A stretch of DNA of 64,000 nt from Jannaschia faecimaris (GTDB lineage: Bacteria; Pseudomonadota; Alphaproteobacteria; Rhodobacterales; Rhodobacteraceae). Made by a program: the position numbers and the translations under genes. Every line of letters starts with the position of its first letter. The first letter of the stretch is position 1. The stretch covers positions 434,001 to 498,000 of the forward strand of contig NZ_FNPX01000001.1 in NCBI RefSeq assembly GCF_900107415.1, read 5' to 3'. Shown here piece by piece: positions 28,633 through 38,447 of the stretch. The notes under the pieces were generated by a model. That model did not search any database. It was not told where the DNA came from and saw only the letters and a list, made by a program, of their open reading frames with translations.

Positions 28633-28647
28633 TTAACCGCCCGTTAC
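28633..28647 (-). promoter_or_regulatory. near-consensus CtrA site upstream of flhA
   Basis: Read on the minus strand the site is GTAA-N7-TTAAC, one mismatch from TTAA-N7-TTAAC. It lies 55-69 bases before the flhA start and overlaps the last codon of the preceding gene. It could drive flhA separately from the motA operon. Confidence 0.45.
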
Positions 28648-30437
28648 GGTCCCTGGATAAGGTGCCTTGCAAGCGCCCCGATTTCTCGGCTTTGGCGGAG
28701 AACCTGATCTGCGATCGCCAAGTCAGTATCCAGAGTAATGGATTGGTTCCGTTTCAGAATGACATCGGCAATCTCGTTGCGTGCGGACCAGCTTTCAGGC
28801 GGAGCGTCTGCCAATGCGCTCAGGTCCCTAGTAAGCCAAGGATCGACGTCGGTCAGACGTGTGGGAACTTGAAACGGAAGGTGCCCACTCGGTGCATCCG
28901 CAAAGCGTCTGGCGGTATCTGGAAGGCCCAGCTCAAGGAAGAAATCTCGGCCGCGCAAGCGATTGGGGTCATCTGGCGACAGCAGGGGCTCGAGACGGAC
29001 CATAAAATCGGCTGCGTCCTCAGGTGACAGATGGGCTGATAGCAGATCGAGAAGGGTTTGGGCTGAAACCTGATTGTCAGTAACCATTTCTATAGCCATG
29101 GCAGGCTGGCGCGCAATGACCAGCGACTCTGCCAACACGAGATCGAGTGCATCAAGCATTGGTCCATTCGGAACTGATGGTCGGATTGCCCTAGCGTTTT
29201 CCAGATGCAATTCATCCAACGGTTGGCTGGAAATGTTAGCGGATTCAAGGAGGTCAATGGCGGCGAGTACGGCGGCGGCACTAGTTCCCGCCGCAGCCTC
29301 GGACAATTTTGGTTCGGACATGGGGGTATTCGCGGTGGGAGTGATTCCGATGAGTAAATCTGCTTGGTTCAGCAGAGTGAGAGACGAACTCAGCCGGTTT
29401 CCAAATTCGCGGCGGCGCCCCTCTGGAATCCCGTCGAGAAAGCGCGCAAGTTCCGCTTCGTTTGCGCGCGCCCAAACGTCGGCTTCGACCCCGATGAGGA
29501 GGGCTACGACAGCGGCACCGGGCCCGCAACCCGGGTCAATACTTGAATACTCCGGTAACGAGCTGCCATCCAAAGCCGCCGCGACAATACGTATCACCTC
29601 CTGATCGTTGGCGGAACTTTCGATTGAACGTTTGGCTTCTGCCCCCCAACCGAGACGTAGATAGACCAATGCCAGATCGTGCACTGCGTTTTCGTCTAGC
29701 TCGTCCTGGCCCGTGAGTAATGAAGCGTGCGCTGCGGTCAGATCATCGAGCGCTTCCCCCAAATCGGAAGTCAGGACCATTCGCGCCAGCGCATCGACTT
29801 CGCAATTCGATGCCTGATGAATTGCCCTTTCTGAAAGCATCTCATCAAGAACCAATGGAACATGGCCCGTTGGATGCTTAAGAATTTGGTTCGAAGTGAT
29901 CTGCGCCACTGAAGAACTTTCTATTTCTCCATCGATTAGAGAGCTTTGGTTTCCTCTCGATTCGACAAGAGACGCAAGTAAAGGTGCTTGAAGTTCGAAG
30001 GACGGCATGCGCAGCGGCAGAAATTTGAACGGCAATTCCGTTGCATGTGCATTACTATTCGATGAAAATTCCGACAATGGATCATTAATATCTATTACGA
30101 TATGATTGCTCGGAATTTGTGTTATGTTTACCGGACAGGCGCATCCAAGAACCAAAGAGAGCGTACCATTCTCAAAGGTAGCGCTACGTAGGCGGTCGCG
30201 TGGGATCAATTTAAAAACTTGGCTTAAATCCAAACTGGGCATGTCTCTTGAAAATTTGATGTGCGTCACACCATTCAATTCCAAAACTGCCCAAGTGCGA
30301 TCGGGGCTATCTGGAAATACTAATCTGCTGAAATTCGGGTGTTCGCCAGATTGCACTTCTACTTGCTGCGCGATGGCACCATCAGAAAGAAGCGCGACCA
30401 AAATCAAAGCGAATAGCGTTTTGGAGTGCCAAATCAT
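28644..30437 (-). CDS. secreted 597-residue protein of unknown role in the motA operon
   Basis: The protein has a Sec signal peptide (about 1-23, ALLSDGAIA-QQ). An N-terminal beta-rich segment (about 24-120) starts VQSGEHPNFSRLVFPDSPDR and ends NHIVIDINDP, a pattern like AMIN-type domains. The rest (about 200-597) is alpha-helical and looks like divergent tetratricopeptide-type repeats (for example ENAVHDLALVYLRLGWGAEAKRS). Two cysteines (CACP) sit in the N-terminal segment. It overlaps motA by four bases and is probably periplasmic. I recall similar uncharacterised proteins in Rhodobacteraceae flagellar clusters but cannot name a function. Base composition is clearly lower in GC than its neighbours. 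Confidence 0.85.
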   Translation of the reverse strand: MIWHSKTLFALILVALLSDGAIAQQVEVQSGEHPNFSRLVFPDSPDRTWAVLELNGVTHIKFSRDMPSLDLSQVFKLIPRDRLRSATFENGTLSLVLGCACPVNITQIPSNHIVIDINDPLSEFSSNSNAHATELPFKFLPLRMPSFELQAPLLASLVESRGNQSSLIDGEIESSSVAQITSNQILKHPTGHVPLVLDEMLSERAIHQASNCEVDALARMVLTSDLGEALDDLTAAHASLLTGQDELDENAVHDLALVYLRLGWGAEAKRSIESSANDQEVIRIVAAALDGSSLPEYSSIDPGCGPGAAVVALLIGVEADVWARANEAELARFLDGIPEGRRREFGNRLSSSLTLLNQADLLIGITPTANTPMSEPKLSEAAAGTSAAAVLAAIDLLESANISSQPLDELHLENARAIRPSVPNGPMLDALDLVLAESLVIARQPAMAIEMVTDNQVSAQTLLDLLSAHLSPEDAADFMVRLEPLLSPDDPNRLRGRDFFLELGLPDTARRFADAPSGHLPFQVPTRLTDVDPWLTRDLSALADAPPESWSARNEIADVILKRNQSITLDTDLAIADQVLRQSREIGALARHLIQGP

Positions 30438-31300: not shown

Positions 31301-31876
31301 CTACTCCGTCGCTGCGTTTGCATTTCGCCCGGCGATGATCACGCTGAAGGCGTAGGCCTTCCCGGGGCTGAGATTCGAAAAGAGTGCTGAGGCCGAATCA
31401 GCATTCATACGCGCGAGAAATCCAGCGGCGAATTCAGGTGCCATAGCTTCGAATAAAATAGCCGCCTCTTTTGGCTTCATACCTTCGTACACGCGAACTA
31501 ATTGGTCGATATCTGTATTAGATGCTGTACTGGAGAATTCCATTCTTGCGACCAGTCTGTTTTCCGCCTCCACCAGATCATCAAGAGCGGCTTCGATTTC
31601 CTGCCTTGCGATGAGTATGTCCTGCTCGCGCAGCGCAACGGCCATTTCCCGTTCGTTCAGCAATGTTGCCTGTCGCTTGATATCACGAAGCAGCGCCGCA
31701 ACTTCGTTGCTCTCGGTCTGGGATATCCGGGCGGTCGGAGCGGATGCCAGCGTCGGTTCAATGTCCGGACGAACTGACAGGCTGGCCGAAACGATCCGGG
31801 TGAGGCCGGACAGGATTAGCAGTGTCACGACTACCGTGACGGTCAATCGCCTCATGCCTCGTGTCCACTGAATCAT
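31301..31876 (-). CDS. MotE-like / MgtE-N domain flagellar protein
   Basis: This 191-residue protein has one N-terminal membrane helix (about 12-30), a long helical, probably coiled-coil region (about 55-115) and a C-terminal MgtE-N-like domain (about 125-182). That domain has YEGMKPKEAAILFEAMAPEFAAGFLARM and LSPGKAYAFSVI, the MotE pattern. MotE is a periplasmic chaperone or linker for motor proteins in rhizobia; here the name is by resemblance. Position before motA and after a coiled-coil gene supports a motor role. The start could also be Met 8. Confidence 0.8.
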   Translation of the reverse strand: MIQWTRGMRRLTVTVVVTLLILSGLTRIVSASLSVRPDIEPTLASAPTARISQTESNEVAALLRDIKRQATLLNEREMAVALREQDILIARQEIEAALDDLVEAENRLVARMEFSSTASNTDIDQLVRVYEGMKPKEAAILFEAMAPEFAAGFLARMNADSASALFSNLSPGKAYAFSVIIAGRNANAATE

Positions 31877-32275: not shown

Positions 32276-32770
32276 TCAGGTAATCACAAAGTCGATGATG
32301 AGAAGGTCGCGGACCGAGTCCCTCCCGGCTAAGAGTTGCACCCGCCGCAGAAGTTGCGCCCGCAGGTCGAGGAGTGCCGTAGGGTCTTCCAGCTTCTGTA
32401 CCGAGACTGCTCGGAGATACGTGGAGAAAATGTCCAGGATACGCGGTTGCAGGGCAGCCACATCGCGGTGCCCTTCCTCTAGCTGGAGAAATGCCCGGAA
32501 GCGCATTTGACGGATCGACCCCGCATCGCCGACCGAAATCATCATCGGATCCAGTTCCAGAAATATTGGAACCTTCTCTGGATTTGAGTGAGAGCCGTTG
32601 GCGGCATTCATGATTCGACCGGATTCACCCAGCACACCGGAGTAAGAGGCGTAGAAACCGGCCGTTGCCAAAAAGAGCGCAGAGAGGGTCGTGAAGCTCC
32701 AGCCCAGTATCCCAAGACCCTTCTTGGGTGTCGTGTCGTTTGCGGAGGCGGATTCGTCAGTATCGGCCAT
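32276..32770 (-). CDS. fliL: flagellar basal body-associated protein FliL
   Basis: The 164-residue protein has a cytoplasmic N-terminal tail, one membrane helix (about 20-43) and a periplasmic domain. That domain has the FliL features FLELDPMMISVGD, MRFRAFLQLEEGHRDVAALQPRILD and a C-terminal RDLLIIDFVIT. FliL supports stator function at the motor. It is the first gene of the leftward operon fliL, coiled-coil gene, motE-like, motA, 597-residue gene, and is divergent from fliF. Confidence 0.9.
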   Translation of the reverse strand: MADTDESASANDTTPKKGLGILGWSFTTLSALFLATAGFYASYSGVLGESGRIMNAANGSHSNPEKVPIFLELDPMMISVGDAGSIRQMRFRAFLQLEEGHRDVAALQPRILDIFSTYLRAVSVQKLEDPTALLDLRAQLLRRVQLLAGRDSVRDLLIIDFVIT

Positions 32771-32814
32771 CGGATAATCCTCATGTTGTCGAGAACAGTC
32801 CTAACTGACCTGAG

Positions 32815-32829
32815 CTAACTGAATGTTAA
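32815..32829. promoter_or_regulatory. near-consensus CtrA site between fliL and fliF
   Basis: CTAA (32815-32818), seven bases, TTAA (32826-32829). This is one mismatch from TTAA-N7-TTAA. It lies in the 122-base divergent region, 64 bases before fliF and 45 bases from fliL, and could control both directions. Confidence 0.5.
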
Positions 32830-32892
32830 TGCAATTGAGGAATCCTGGGCCCTGTACCCAGAACGGGTATCTGGCATCCAGGAGGATCGCGT

Positions 32893-34566
32893 ATGGAGAA
32901 CCTGACAACGGCTTGGCAAGGACAGGACAAGCGTCGACTTGCCATTCTTGCTGGCGCTACGCTTCTCGCCTTTCTCGCCGTCTTTTTCCTGACGCGTATG
33001 GCGACAGCCCCGCGGATGGAGCTCTTGTTCGCGCGGCTCGAATCGGCAACTGCCTCCGAGGTCGTGTCCAGCTTGGATGCGCGCGGCGTGGCCTACGACA
33101 TCCGGGGTGACTCGATCTATGTCGATGGCGCGACGCGCGATGCCCTGCGTATGCAACTGGCGGGCGAGGGCCTGCCCCGTATGGATGGTGCAGGGTACGA
33201 AGTTCTGGACGGTCTGAGCGGGTTTGGCACGACGTCGCAAATGTTCGATGCTGCCTATTGGCGAGCCCGAGAGGGGGAGTTGACGCGCACGATACTCGCC
33301 TCGCCTGGGGTCAAGCTTGCCAGGGTGCATCTGGCGACCGCCGAGTCGTCGCCCTTCGCGCGCGACCGGTCGGCCACGGCGTCAGTCACCGTACAGATGA
33401 CATCGGGAGCCGTGGGATCATCACTCGCCCGAGCGGTGCAATCCCTTATCGCCGGTGCCGTTCGCAACTTGGTCCCCGAGGACGTCACCGTGATCGACGC
33501 AAATAGCGGGCGCGTGGTGGGAGGAGGAGCCCAAGACACCAAGGAGGAAGCGCGCGTGACTCGCGTTGCCGAGATGCGTGCAGCCGTGGAGAACCTGCTG
33601 GCGGCACGCGTCGGGGCAGACCGGTTCGTGGTCGAACTCGCGGTTGAAACCCGAAAGGATATGGAGCGCATCACGGAGCGTGTGCTCGACCCCGACAGTC
33701 GTGTGGTTCTCAGCACCGACACCGAAGAGCGAAGCGCATCGGACAGGGGCGGGTCCGGGGCCGGGGTAACGGTCGCCAGCAACCTCCCGGAGGGCGATGC
33801 CGCCTTTGGCGGAGACGGTACGGAAAGCAACAATGCCGAAACGCGGGAGCGGGTGAACTACGATTTCTCGGCCACCGAGCGTCAGATTGAACGGGGTCCC
33901 GGAGCGATCGAGCGGGTGACCGTCGCCGTCATGGTCGACGGCCAGCGGACCACCGCAGAGGACGGCACGACAGAGTGGGTCCCCCGCGATGCTGCCGAAC
34001 TTGAAACGATTCGCGAACTTGTTCAGGCCGCTGTCGGCTACCGCGAGGAGCGGGGTGACGACGTCACGGTCAGAAGCATGCAATTTGAGATACCCAACGG
34101 CCCCGGTCCCGCACCGGGCTTGTCGCTGCCTTTTGTAACCGGAGGCCAAGTTACCCAAATGGTGACGGCGGGGATGCTGGCGGCTATAGTTTTGGGTCTT
34201 TTGGCATTTGTCGTCCGTCCTGTTCTCAACAGCGTAATGACGCCACAGCTGCCATCTCCGGGAAATGACGACCTGAACCGCGCGCCACCCAGTGGCGAAG
34301 TGAATGCGCTGACTGCCCCGCAGGAGCTGCCTTCGCCGGGGGCAGTGACATCTGATGGGCTACCTGCCCCTTCTGCGGGTCAGAGTCATAGCTTGCCGGA
34401 TCTGTCCGATCTTGGAAACCTTTCAGTCTTCAACGCCTTGGATGACGTAGAGGATGAGCCTCAGGACCCCGTTGATCGGCTCCGCAAGCTGATTTCTGAC
34501 CGTCGAGAGGAGACTGTCGAAGTCCTGCGTGGATGGATGGACGAAGCGACATCGGAGCAGCCGTAA
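32893..34566 (+). CDS. fliF: flagellar MS-ring protein FliF
   Basis: This 557-residue MS-ring protein has a first membrane helix at about 18-36, the secretin-like periplasmic part (ARLESATASEVVSSLDARGV, then LAGEGLPRMDGAGYEVLDGL) and a second helix at about 420-440. The C-terminal tail is 487-557. It ends with DPVDRLRKLISDRREETVEV, the conserved region known to bind the FliG N-terminal domain. That binding segment is intact although no fliG follows. The ATG is preceded by AGGAGG. It begins the rightward operon fliF-fliH-fliN-fliP plus the 210-residue gene. Confidence 0.96.
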   Translation: MENLTTAWQGQDKRRLAILAGATLLAFLAVFFLTRMATAPRMELLFARLESATASEVVSSLDARGVAYDIRGDSIYVDGATRDALRMQLAGEGLPRMDGAGYEVLDGLSGFGTTSQMFDAAYWRAREGELTRTILASPGVKLARVHLATAESSPFARDRSATASVTVQMTSGAVGSSLARAVQSLIAGAVRNLVPEDVTVIDANSGRVVGGGAQDTKEEARVTRVAEMRAAVENLLAARVGADRFVVELAVETRKDMERITERVLDPDSRVVLSTDTEERSASDRGGSGAGVTVASNLPEGDAAFGGDGTESNNAETRERVNYDFSATERQIERGPGAIERVTVAVMVDGQRTTAEDGTTEWVPRDAAELETIRELVQAAVGYREERGDDVTVRSMQFEIPNGPGPAPGLSLPFVTGGQVTQMVTAGMLAAIVLGLLAFVVRPVLNSVMTPQLPSPGNDDLNRAPPSGEVNALTAPQELPSPGAVTSDGLPAPSAGQSHSLPDLSDLGNLSVFNALDDVEDEPQDPVDRLRKLISDRREETVEVLRGWMDEATSEQP

Positions 34567-35171
34567 TGGCCCCGCTTTTTGAGGATTTCGGAGACCCTGA
34601 GGCGTCACCGCCTGCCAGGTCAAGCCCCACGGCAGTTGCCGTGGATCGCTATGACGATGGCTTTAATGCGGGCTGGGACGACGCGATGGCTCAGGTAGAT
34701 GCGGAACAGTCTCGAATCGGGGCACAGCTTGCCATTCGACTGGCCGAGATTGACCGTGATGAACGTGAGGCCGGGCAGGCCCTGATCGCCGACCTTGAAC
34801 CCGCGCTTCGTGACGTGTTCGACAAGGTCTTGCCTCATGCCGTGGAACGAACGTTTCTGGGATGCCTCATGGAGGAGATTACTGACGTGCTGAATGCCGC
34901 TAACGAGCAACTGACGGTCAATGTGTCTCCGGAAGATGTGACGCCCATGACGCGTCTGCTGGGCCGGGCTGGCATCGGACCGACGCAGGCCATCGTAAGC
35001 GGCGAATCGGCTCTTGCGATGTCGCAGGCGCTTATCACGTGGACAGGCCAGGAACGGCGGATCGACCTAGACGGTGTGTTGTCGGAGTTGGACAGCGCGA
35101 TCGACACCTTTTTCGAAACACTCGATCGGGGCCAGAACGCCACCGACATCAAGGAGGCCCAGAATGGCTGA
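34566..35171 (+). CDS. fliH: FliH-like protein
   Basis: The 201-residue soluble protein starts at ATG 34566 overlapping the fliF stop (TAATG). An N-terminal acidic region precedes a helical middle (about 35-95) and a compact C-terminal part (about 95-175), the general plan of FliH/FlbE, which binds FliI and FliN. Sequence identity to FliH cannot be judged by eye beyond this plan. In Caulobacter the equivalent gene also lies before fliN, but fliG precedes it there, and here that gene is missing. Confidence 0.75.
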   Translation: MAPLFEDFGDPEASPPARSSPTAVAVDRYDDGFNAGWDDAMAQVDAEQSRIGAQLAIRLAEIDRDEREAGQALIADLEPALRDVFDKVLPHAVERTFLGCLMEEITDVLNAANEQLTVNVSPEDVTPMTRLLGRAGIGPTQAIVSGESALAMSQALITWTGQERRIDLDGVLSELDSAIDTFFETLDRGQNATDIKEAQNG

Positions 35172-35439
35172 TCCCACCCCCGAGGCGAAATCCGCGCTGT
35201 CGCGTGTGCCTGTCGAAATTACGATATCAGTCGGCCGTGCCCACCCGACTGTGTCGGAACTTCTGAATATGAAGCGCGACACCGTTCTGACACTGGATCG
35301 CGGTGTTGCCGACCCGGTCGAACTTTATGCTGGCGACCGGCTGATCGGGCGCGGCGAACTACAGGAAATCGGCGGTGACGGCTCTGGTCGGTTGGCCGTT
35401 CGCCTAACCGAGGTGACCGAGACGGATGGTGCTGCGTGA
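35164..35439 (+). CDS. fliN: flagellar motor switch protein FliN
   Basis: The 91-residue protein starts at ATG 35164. The surface-presentation domain (SPOA) fills most of it: VPVEITISVGRAHPTVSELLNM, TLDRGVADPVELYAGDRLIGRGELQEIG. FliN forms the lower C ring with FliM, which is not encoded here. It overlaps the FliH-like gene (eight bases) and the fliP GTG start (four bases). Confidence 0.92.
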   Translation: MADPTPEAKSALSRVPVEITISVGRAHPTVSELLNMKRDTVLTLDRGVADPVELYAGDRLIGRGELQEIGGDGSGRLAVRLTEVTETDGAA

Positions 35440-36158
35440 ATCACCAATCCTCGCGTGTCGTGGTGCCGGCGCTCGTTCTTGTCCTGCTTGTCTGGCCGGG
35501 CATCGCGGTGGCCCAGGATCTGAACTTCGACCTGGGCGACGGGTCGGTTACCTTGCGCACGGTACAGCTGATTGCATTGCTCACGGTTCTCAGCCTGGCA
35601 CCTGGCATCGCTGTGACCGTCACCTGCTTTCCGTTCATTGTGACCGTGCTGTCGATCATGCGGCAGGCGATCGGACTACAAGCTTCGCCGCCGAACATGC
35701 TCATCGTCAGTCTAGCGATGTTTCTGACGTATTTCGTCATGGAGCCGGTGGTCATGGCCGCTTGGGAAGTTGGGATCGGCCCCCTCACACGAGGCGAAAT
35801 GGAGGCGGTCGATGCCATTCCGGCGGCGGTCGAGCCGTTTCGCGCCTTCATGTCTGCCCGTGTTGACGCGGATACCCTGGCCCACCTTCAGGACCTGCGT
35901 CCTTCCGCGGAAGAAGGCGCGCTATCTGTCCTTATTCCATCGTTCCTGCTGTCGGAGGTGACGCGAGCGTTTCAGATTGGGTTCTTGGTGTTCATGCCGT
36001 TCCTGATTATCGACATGGTGGCGGCGGCCATATTGATGTCGATGGGCATGATGATGGTCCCTCCAGCAATCGTTTCATTGCCATTCAAACTCGCTTTCTT
36101 CGTTGTCGTGGACGGATGGACGCTCGTGTCCGGTGCCCTCGTGCGAAGCTATCTTTAA
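35436..36158 (+). CDS. fliP: flagellar export gate protein FliP
   Basis: The 240-residue protein starts at GTG 35436. It has a signal peptide (about 1-26, PGIAVAQ) and then four membrane helices. It has the FliP features LTVLSLAPGIAVTVTCFPFIV, SPPNMLIVSLAMFLTYFVM and LPFKLAFFVVVDGWTLV near the end. FliP is the main subunit of the FliPQR gate. It overlaps fliN by four bases and is followed 11 bases later by the 210-residue gene. Confidence 0.95.
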   Translation: MNHQSSRVVVPALVLVLLVWPGIAVAQDLNFDLGDGSVTLRTVQLIALLTVLSLAPGIAVTVTCFPFIVTVLSIMRQAIGLQASPPNMLIVSLAMFLTYFVMEPVVMAAWEVGIGPLTRGEMEAVDAIPAAVEPFRAFMSARVDADTLAHLQDLRPSAEEGALSVLIPSFLLSEVTRAFQIGFLVFMPFLIIDMVAAAILMSMGMMMVPPAIVSLPFKLAFFVVVDGWTLVSGALVRSYL

Positions 36159-36169
36159 GAGAGGTCCAG

Positions 36170-36802
36170 ATGCCAGCCATCCCCTTTGCAGACCCCGACC
36201 CGCTCATCGCGGATGAAACGCAGCCTGTAACGAACGCGCAGAAGGCCCGCGCCCTTATTGCCATGCTGGAAAAGGGGCATGACGGCTCGGCTGACGTGCC
36301 CGCAGAACGGCTGCGCGACTGGGCGAACGACCTCATCCGGACGGTCGAGGCAGAGAGGCCCAAGCCATCCGTCGCCCCAGCACAGCGTCGCCGTCTGTTC
36401 ACGAAGGCACCGCCGAAGCTGACTGTTGCCGCGCCATCGACGCGGCCGGTACCGGAGGGTCAACCGTCCCGCCTGACCCTGACCGCGCCGACGCCCCATC
36501 GGTCCGCCCCGACGATGAAGCCGGCACCCTCACTGACGCCTGCGATCTTCACACAGGGTGATGTTCGCAAAGTCATTGCCACGACTATCGACCCGGTCAC
36601 GCTCGCCCGTGAGCATCCGGCGGTCATCGCAATGACGCTACTTGGCAAGCCGTCGATGGATCAGGCGTCCGCGCTCCGCAGCCTGCCGGGCGGACAGGTC
36701 CGTGCTGTCCACAGAGCGCTGCGTCAATTGGAACAAAGCCAACCGCGCGCTCCTGAGGGGCAATCCCCCTCCGAGGAACGCGCGCCCCCCATCAGCGGGT
36801 AA
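36170..36802 (+). CDS. 210-residue protein with a FliG middle-domain-like C-terminal segment
   Basis: This protein starts at ATG 36170 after GAGAGGT. Three parts are visible. A helical N-terminal part (about 20-62) contains [13 protein letters not shown] and [13 protein letters not shown] proline- and alanine-rich linker (about 64-122) follows. A helical C-terminal part (about 128-188) contains [13 protein letters not shown] (147-159) and then [21 protein letters not shown] (164-184). That C-terminal pattern resembles the EHPQ-containing helices of the FliG middle domain, EHPQ-x-IA-x-IL followed by AA-x-VL-x-x-LP. There is no torque-generating C-terminal domain. The gene is last in the fliF operon and its end overlaps ettA. 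FliG identity is inference. Confidence 0.6.
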
Positions 36803-38447
36803 ACTTCTTGTGCAGGACGCGCTTCGGCTCCAGCGAGTCAGGGCCGAGGCGGCGGGCCTTATCGTCTTCGTAGGCCTTAAAGTTACCCTCGAACCATTCG
36901 ACGTGGCTGTTGCCCTCGAACGCCAGGATGTGTGTGCAAAGACGATCCAGGAAGAACCGGTCGTGCGAGATCACAACGGCGCAGCCGGCGAAATCCTCGA
37001 TCGCGTCTTCCAGCGCGCGCAGGGTTTCCACGTCCAGGTCGTTGGTCGGCTCGTCGAGAAGCAGGACGTTTCCTCCGTCCTTTAGCAGACGCGCCATGTG
37101 CACGCGGTTCCGCTCCCCACCCGAGAGGATTCCGACTTTCTTCTGTTGGTCCGAGCCCTTGAAGTTGAACGCTCCGCAGTATGCGCGGGACGCGATTTCC
37201 GCGTCGCCCAGCTTGATCAGCTCGGCACCACCCGAAATCGCCTGCCAGACGTTATCATCAGGGTTCAGATCGTCACGCGATTGGTCGACATAGGACAGCT
37301 TGACCGTATCACCGAATTCCACCGAGCCTGAGTCGGGCTGTTCCTGCCCGGTCAGCATGCGGAACAGGGTCGATTTGCCCGCACCGTTGGCACCGATTAC
37401 GCCGACGATACCGCCCGGAGGCAACGAGAACGTCAGGTTTTCGAACAGAAGCTTGTCGCCATAGGCCTTGGTCAGGCCGTTGGCCTCAATCACCTTGTTG
37501 CCGAGACGCGGTCCGTTCGGGATGATGATCTGGGCCTTGCCGACGCGGTCCTTTTCCGATCGATCCGCCATCTCGTGGTAGGCGTTGATCCGGGCCTTGG
37601 ACTTGGTCTGGCGGGCCTTGGCACCGGCGCGCATCCACTCCAACTCGCGGGCCAGCGTCTTCTGGCGGGACTTGTCTTCCTTGGACTCTTGCTCCAGCCG
37701 TTTGGCCTTCTGCTCGACCCAGCTGGAGTAGTTACCTTCCCAGGGAATGCCCTTGCCGCGCTCCAGTTCCAGGATCCAGGACGTGATATCGTCGAGGAAA
37801 TAGCGGTCGTGGGTCACGATCAGGCAGGTGCCCTTGTAGTTGATCAGGTGCCGCTGAAGCCAGGCGATCGTCTCGGCGTCGAGGTGGTTGGTCGGCTCGT
37901 CCAGCAGCAACATGTCCGGCTCGTCCAGCAGCAGCTTGCACAGCGCTACCCGACGACGTTCGCCGCCCGACAGGGTGGCGGGGTTGGAGTCGTCCGGCGG
38001 GCAGCGTAGCGCCTCCAGCGCGATGTCGACGCGGCTGTCCAGATCCCACAGGTTCTTGCTGTCGATCTCGTCCTGCAGCTTGCCCATTTCCTCGGCGGTC
38101 TCGTCCGAGTAGTTCATCGCCAACTCGTTGTAGCGGTCCAGGATGGCCTGTTGGTCGGCGACGCCTTCCATCACGTTTTCGCGGACGGTCTTGCTGTCGT
38201 CCAACTCCGGTTCCTGGGACAGGTAGCCGATCTTGGCCCCCTCGGCGGCCCAGGCTTCGCCCTGAAAATCCTTGTCCTGACCGGCCATGATCCGCATCAG
38301 CGATGACTTGCCGGTGCCATTCACGCCGACAACGCCGATCTTGACGCCGGGCAGGAACGACAAGCGAATGTTTTCAAACACCTTCTTGCCGCCGGGATAG
38401 GTCTTGGACACGCCGTCCATGTGATAGACGTACTGATAGCTTGCCAT
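36792..38447 (-). CDS. ettA: energy-dependent translational throttle protein EttA (ABC-F ATPase)
   Basis: The 551-residue soluble ABC-F protein starts at ATG 38445-38447 ([10 protein letters not shown]). It has two ATP-binding cassettes: Walker [10 protein letters not shown] and signature [11 protein letters not shown] in the first, and GANGAGKST and [15 protein letters not shown] in the second. The interdomain linker has [17 protein letters not shown], typical of EttA. It binds the ribosomal E site and gates the first steps of elongation according to energy state. Its last 11 bases overlap the 210-residue gene on the opposite strand. Confidence 0.95.

Follow-up and report, generated by a model that had tools for sequence, protein, structure and literature searches.

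The last gene of the flagellar gene row in the window, which is the whole stretch of 64,000 nt of Jannaschia faecimaris DNA that was analysed, encodes a 210-residue protein (X) that very probably originates from FliG, namely from the operon copy of FliG eroded after duplication, and that by membership criteria is a FliG-derived protein outside FliG proper. Few components of the flagellar motor are as strongly conserved as FliG. The stepwise stripping of one FliG copy of its motor domain, together with the loss of both sides of the classical FliG-FliM contact, would represent a natural experiment in the rebuilding of a rotary switch, and the X system poses the questions of what a rotor needs once EHPQ-GGxG is gone and of whether the leftover copy helps.

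X is a real gene, placed last in the row fliF, fliH-like, fliN, fliP, X:

32893..34566 (+), fliF (Pfam YscJ_FliF, E 5.9e-43)
34533..35171 (+), fliH-like gene, named by position only
35164..35439 (+), fliN (Pfam FliMN_C, E 1.5e-18)
35436..36158 (+), fliP, immediately 5' of X (Pfam FliP, E 7.5e-66)
36160..36164 (+), agagg, ribosome-binding-like sequence 5' of the ATG of X, read from the sequence
36170..36802 (+), X, open reading frame with ATG start, FliG-derived protein of 210 residues without FliG_C

Its ATG lies 11 nt downstream of the fliP stop and its 3' end overlaps by 11 nt the 3' end of a convergent ABC-F gene. The protein in fliH position gave no Pfam match at E up to 1, NCBIfam gave no match to X, and a scan of positions 32700-37000 returned no more sigma-70-type promoters and terminators than shuffled sequence. 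The operon is called fliFHNP in Phaeobacter inhibens (PMC12363192), and the part of that account consulted mentions no gene like X.

The distribution of X was followed in a genus set of 20 genomes including the window's own, the genus being Jannaschia by its named relatives. X is present in 19 of them, since 18 genomes matched the protein directly and the X of G008 was found by position; it always stands 3' of fliP, the first start codon lying at -8 to +19 nt from the fliP stop, with its reading frame intact in all 19 members. No X was found by protein match or position in the twentieth genome (G014), whose flagellar cluster is divergent and carries, besides fliF and fliN, a full-length FliG behind fliP (L047, G014:C3:25000-37000). 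A profile of the 19 X proteins matched 12 of 394 family genomes (2 of the genus and 10 of the 392 others), and eight of the ten matches outside the genus stand directly after fliP; as a survey of the slot after fliP added X in G030 and G214, at least ten other genera carry it. The preliminary description had proposed listing homologues in other Rhodobacteraceae and had named a conserved place after fliP as support, and both were recovered (at least ten other genera; 19/20 genus genomes and 8/10 profile matches elsewhere). The remaining two profile matches outside the genus (G386, G381) were not counted as X, having no flagellar neighbour in the stretch examined, a match outside the family (G036, E 1e-4) with four internal stops was dropped as chance, and two slot matches located 593 and 418 nt after fliP (G083, E 0.25; G139, E 0.76) were likewise taken as chance.

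The architecture of X in alignment consists of an N-box, a proline-rich linker of highly variable length and a C-box:

36227..36352 (+), N-box (residues 20-61), aligning with the start of FliG_N (P 2e-4 to 8e-4; 0/100 shuffles as good)
36395..36421 (+), LFTKAPPKL, a short motif of the proline-rich linker whose pattern LFxxxAPxL was found in 17/19 genus members
36602..36739 (+), C-box (residues 145-190), homologous by Pfam, profile-profile comparison and predicted fold to the EHPQ half of FliG_M
36611..36622 (+), EHPA at the site of FliG EHPQ (residues 148-151), from translation and alignment

The FliG_M-like C-terminal motif of the preliminary description is indeed present (residues 147-190) and better than chance. 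Its EHPQ holds for the EHP part, the fourth residue being A in X: among 27 aligned members, 25 have EHPA at the EHPQ site and the other two EHSH and ENPA. The Pfam FliG_M model matched the window's X with an E of 0.0048 and 17.5 bits, below its cut-off of 25, and 13 of the 19 genus members at E up to 10, the best being the window's X, and no other Pfam family matched more than one of the 19. Run against whole genus genomes, the model found the X locus in at least 14 of 20 among the matches listed, with weak E values (0.005 to 0.5). When PDB sequences were searched with a profile of 27 X proteins, three FliG chains came first (E 0.09 to 0.12).

Profile-profile comparisons with 17 FliGs, from whose alignment one over-extended row (L045) was left out, gave P values of 3e-8 for full-length X of eight members from other genera and 2e-5 for all 27; when the profile covered full-length X of the 19 genus members, the N-box and not the C-box aligned best (P 0.0016). 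The C-box alone reached P 3e-4 (19 genus rows), 8e-7 (27) and 5e-8 (the eight of other genera), and the N-box 3e-4, 2e-4 and 8e-4 respectively; in each of the six box tests, none of 100 column-shuffled FliG profiles reached the score. The two boxes are collinear with FliG: the N-box falls on the beginning of FliG_N, the C-box on the EHPQ part of FliG_M. As controls, eight other flagellar families gave P 0.07 or worse with the C-box, and the lowest value for the N-box was 0.04 (FliF). Taken singly, X proteins have low scores against FliG profiles. The sequence comparisons show homology between the C-terminal 45 residues of X and the EHPQ half of FliG_M. Pfam FliG_N gave no match to X, but the N-box aligns with its start; the helical N-terminal part of the preliminary description is itself FliG_N-like by profile comparison. 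The absence of a C-terminal torque helix was borne out, as no Pfam FliG_C match was found in the 19 genus members, and at eight loci a search behind X or the intermediate forms detected the positive control but no FliG_C trace below E 0.01. X lacks three marks of FliG proper (FliG_M over the Pfam cut-off, EHPQ and FliG_C) and shows those of FliG descent, which are homology, the same locus and intermediate forms.

The N-box reads KARALLAML...PPERLRDWARDLVRTVE in the alignment of genus X proteins. The length of X ranges from 183 to 329 aa across genus members. The LFxxxAPxL motif, which stands in an otherwise variable linker and occurs twice in G007 (L009), looks like a candidate binding motif. 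Over 171 pairs, with pS close to saturation, pN/pS was lowest in the C-box (0.43), against 0.71 in the N-box and 0.85 in the linker; in the pair G000-G011 the C-box had pN 0.03 and pS 0.63. X is under purifying selection, as judged from the C-box ratio of 0.43 and from the low pN relative to pS of this pair.

AlphaFold2, run on the window's X and nine named relatives, predicted helices at residues 22-33, 45-62, 129-139, 142-147, 150-157, 162-170 and 176-190, with a mean pLDDT of 67 and values of 83 to 86 in blocks 151-190; a model of the C-box alone (residues 125-195) reached a pLDDT of 83 and a pTM of 0.64. In Foldseek, the first four matches of the whole model were FliG with a best E of 0.2, which is not significant; they are led by 4qrm, a complex of the FliG middle domain with FliM (probability 1.00 and a TM-score by target of 0.55). 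With the C-box alone, FliG came first (E 0.39) and MgtE second, again not significant, and MgtE cytosolic domains were among the matches of both models. The predicted fold of X therefore agrees with FliG_M and is no proof by itself. The preliminary description had held that a fold other than ARM-like or best matches to an unrelated family would speak against its reading; instead, the C-terminus is predicted to be helical and the first solved matches are FliG, at E 0.2 or more.

The slot after fliP was then surveyed across the family. fliP was matched at E up to 1e-20 in 156 of 198 sampled family genomes, and about 1.9 kb after fliP were read in 127 of the rows down to E 4e-73; of the rows down to this level, G190 and G209 were left out, as were G000, G020 and G022, which were read separately. 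The slot holds a full-length FliG (350-377 aa) in nine of the 127 genomes, X in four, intermediates in two and neither X nor FliG in 112. G020 is a tenth family genome with full FliG in the slot, and in G022 fliP is followed by flgI, named by eye, on the opposite strand. The slot protein of G136 has 200 aa with FliG_N, FliG_M and EHPQ, ends at the end of FliG_M (E 8.6e-34 against the FliG profile) and is followed by no FliG_C trace on its 3' side. That of G212, 187 aa long, begins like FliG_N and contains a proline-rich stretch and EHSGVIA. Both proteins bridge FliG and X. The suggestion of the preliminary description that X may be a reduced FliG derivative is well supported by the profiles, the predicted fold, the slot shared with full FliG and these two intermediates. 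In the literature searched, with most subscription journals outside its coverage, no description of a FliG without FliG_C after fliP was found.

FliG_C was found in all 20 genus genomes and in 40/40 chosen other genomes. In the eight slot-FliG genomes among these 40, the slot gene is the sole FliG, and in G020 and G023 it is the only FliG over the cut-off. A FliG located elsewhere is carried by all 12 X or intermediate genomes tested and by 20 genomes with neither X nor FliG in the slot; this orphan FliG is represented in the window's genome by:

L043:6329-7366 (-), orphan FliG of 345 aa with FliG_C, on contig C42 amid unrelated genes

A fliG outside the fla1 cluster is required for motility in Phaeobacter inhibens (PMC12363192, consulted in part), and the fliG and fliM of the fla2 set of Rhodobacter sphaeroides are also located elsewhere, according to the part of PMC7277832 consulted. 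The FliG tree comprises 47 FliGs, the G212 slot protein being left out. The FliGs of G278, G420, G155, G077, G028 and G090 are present and their sequences were unread; those of G280, G094 and G135 were not among the 27 orphans counted, since the FliG read was that of a second flagellar system. The 27 orphans form one clade (support 97/88) nested within the slot FliGs, in a tree where 12 of 44 inner forks are open and the G136 slot protein is a long branch. Within this clade, the G136 orphan branches first, the G212 orphan second and the X-bearing lineages next; the 15 orphans whose genomes have no X make up a single clade (95/92). As a history, the tree would represent a single duplication, after which the slot copy lost FliG_C and shrank to X, with X lost in the crown clade. 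By sequence score, X comes nearer to slot FliG or to orphan FliG in 18 versus 13 of 31 rows, which gives no decision; the parentage of X therefore rests on position and intermediates.

The rotor has changed as well, at the known FliG-FliM contact made of EHPQ and GGxG (PMC4642947, consulted in part); the EHPQ and FliM counts mirror few evolutionary events and the samples are not independent. All ten full slot FliGs have EHPQ, as does the G136 slot protein; none of the 27 orphan FliGs does, most of them having ESxE and the G136 orphan EHAQ. The Pfam FliM family was matched in 10/10 slot-FliG genomes (nine over the cut-off) and in 0/20 others at E up to 0.01, these other genomes having a FliM-like protein that carries a SpoA domain at its C-terminus (for example in L270, G000:C21). 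Nine of the ten slot-FliG genomes, all but G144, retain the GG of the GGxG loop; it is retained in none of 20 FliM-like proteins from 19 of the 20 other genomes, that of G193 not being among those read. As the loss of EHPQ goes with that of the GG loop, the classical FliG-FliM contact seems, on these sequences, to have been replaced in the EHPQ-less motors of the family. That FliG is split, the orphan supplying torque without EHPQ, FliM lacking the GG loop and the EHP piece of X acting in trans in a rebuilt C-ring with a FliG-FliM joint unlike the textbook EHPQ-GGxG, is a speculative and rather doubtful extension. In G136, the two FliGs (200-aa slot protein plus full orphan) are accompanied by two FliM-like proteins, of which one lies near the orphan FliG (L181, L280, L281), and a FliM-like gene also stands near the orphan FliG of G212.

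Taken together, the following course is proposed. An ancestor within the family would have acquired a second fliG by duplication, and this copy, the orphan, would have taken over torque generation. In the operon copy, FliG_C would have gone first, followed by the second half of FliG_M and most of FliG_N, and a proline-rich linker would have been added. X would be a small cytoplasmic, torque-less adaptor whose FliG_M half may stack on the orphan FliG ring or touch FliM, with its N-terminal helices near FliG_N/FliF, and which may tune C-ring assembly or stability; most likely, it would sit on, or help to build, a ring of orphan FliG and divergent FliM. Being without the torque helix, X cannot drive rotation as FliG does; what it conserves is a piece of FliG_N and that half of FliG_M which carries the contact to FliM. 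The whole explanation, an eroded operon FliG retained as a torque-less rotor adaptor, is considered fairly probable. The function itself, that of an adaptor tuning C-ring assembly or stability, is suggested by purifying selection and operon position and is advanced tentatively as a possibility of somewhat less than even weight; the partner or adaptor of the rotor switch considered in the preliminary description thus stays a possibility. It speaks against the explanation that X is dispensed with in most family genomes, 112 of 127 slots having neither X nor FliG.

The main rivals are a plain relic and a factor for export or assembly. A decaying relic without present function, already lost in the crown clade, would account for the very variable linker and length of X, for its absence from most surveyed slots and for the one large orphan clade from genomes without it; it is nonetheless distinctly unlikely given the intact frame in 19/19 genus members, the strong constraint on the C-box and the maintenance of X in at least ten other genera. 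X could also have been recruited away from the rotor, for instance to serve assembly or export in the flagellar secretion apparatus encoded beside it (fliH-like, fliP), in line with its place after fliN and fliP and with an adaptor-like, disordered linker carrying a short conserved motif. This appears unlikely as well, as the conserved parts of X are pieces of FliG_N and FliG_M, domains that in FliG contact FliF, FliG and FliM, which is established knowledge (PMC4642947, consulted in part). Finally, an unrelated or MgtE_N-like ARM mini-domain convergent with FliG_M, to which the MgtE domains among the Foldseek matches and the low scores of single X proteins could be ascribed, is highly improbable: the EHP motif, the N-box in FliG order, the same slot and the two intermediates oppose it, G136 and G212 largely refuting it, and the C-box gives P 5e-8 against FliG but 0.07 against the cluster's MotE-like (MgtE_N) protein. 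Descent of X from MotE/MgtE_N was rejected, the C-box giving P 0.07 to 0.71 with the profile of this protein.

Compared with FliG (Pfam FliG_N, FliG_M PF14841, FliG_C PF01706), X retains, in collinear order, the start of FliG_N and the half of FliG_M with EHP, and it shares the operon slot that holds full-length FliG in ten family genomes; it differs by the missing FliG_C, the incomplete FliG_N and FliG_M, EHPA instead of EHPQ, the long proline-rich linker and the other full FliG in its genome. The orphan FliG would be its paralogue by descent; that of the window's genome has FliG_C in its 345 aa, ESDE at the EHPQ site and unrelated neighbours. Duplication of FliG with specialisation is also seen in spirochaetes, which have two FliGs per cell (FliG1 and FliG2), both keeping the FliG architecture.

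MotE/MgtE_N-type proteins resemble X as ARM-like relatives of FliG_M, and one is encoded in the X cluster:

31301-31876 (-), MotE-like gene (weak Pfam MgtE_N match, E 9.7e-5)

MgtE_N, which this protein matches weakly, is a relative of FliG_M, but the MotE profile has no significant match to X (P 0.07 or worse), and the MotE of Cereibacter sphaeroides is periplasmic and stator-associated, according to the part of PMC10954123 consulted. By position, 31301-31876 (-) and 28644-30437 (-) match MotE and MotK of Cereibacter sphaeroides (PMC10954123) and the essential CP3 and CP4 of Phaeobacter inhibens (PMC12363192), as far as the parts consulted go; MotE/MotK and CP3/CP4 would then be the same protein set, an equation of names that we infer.
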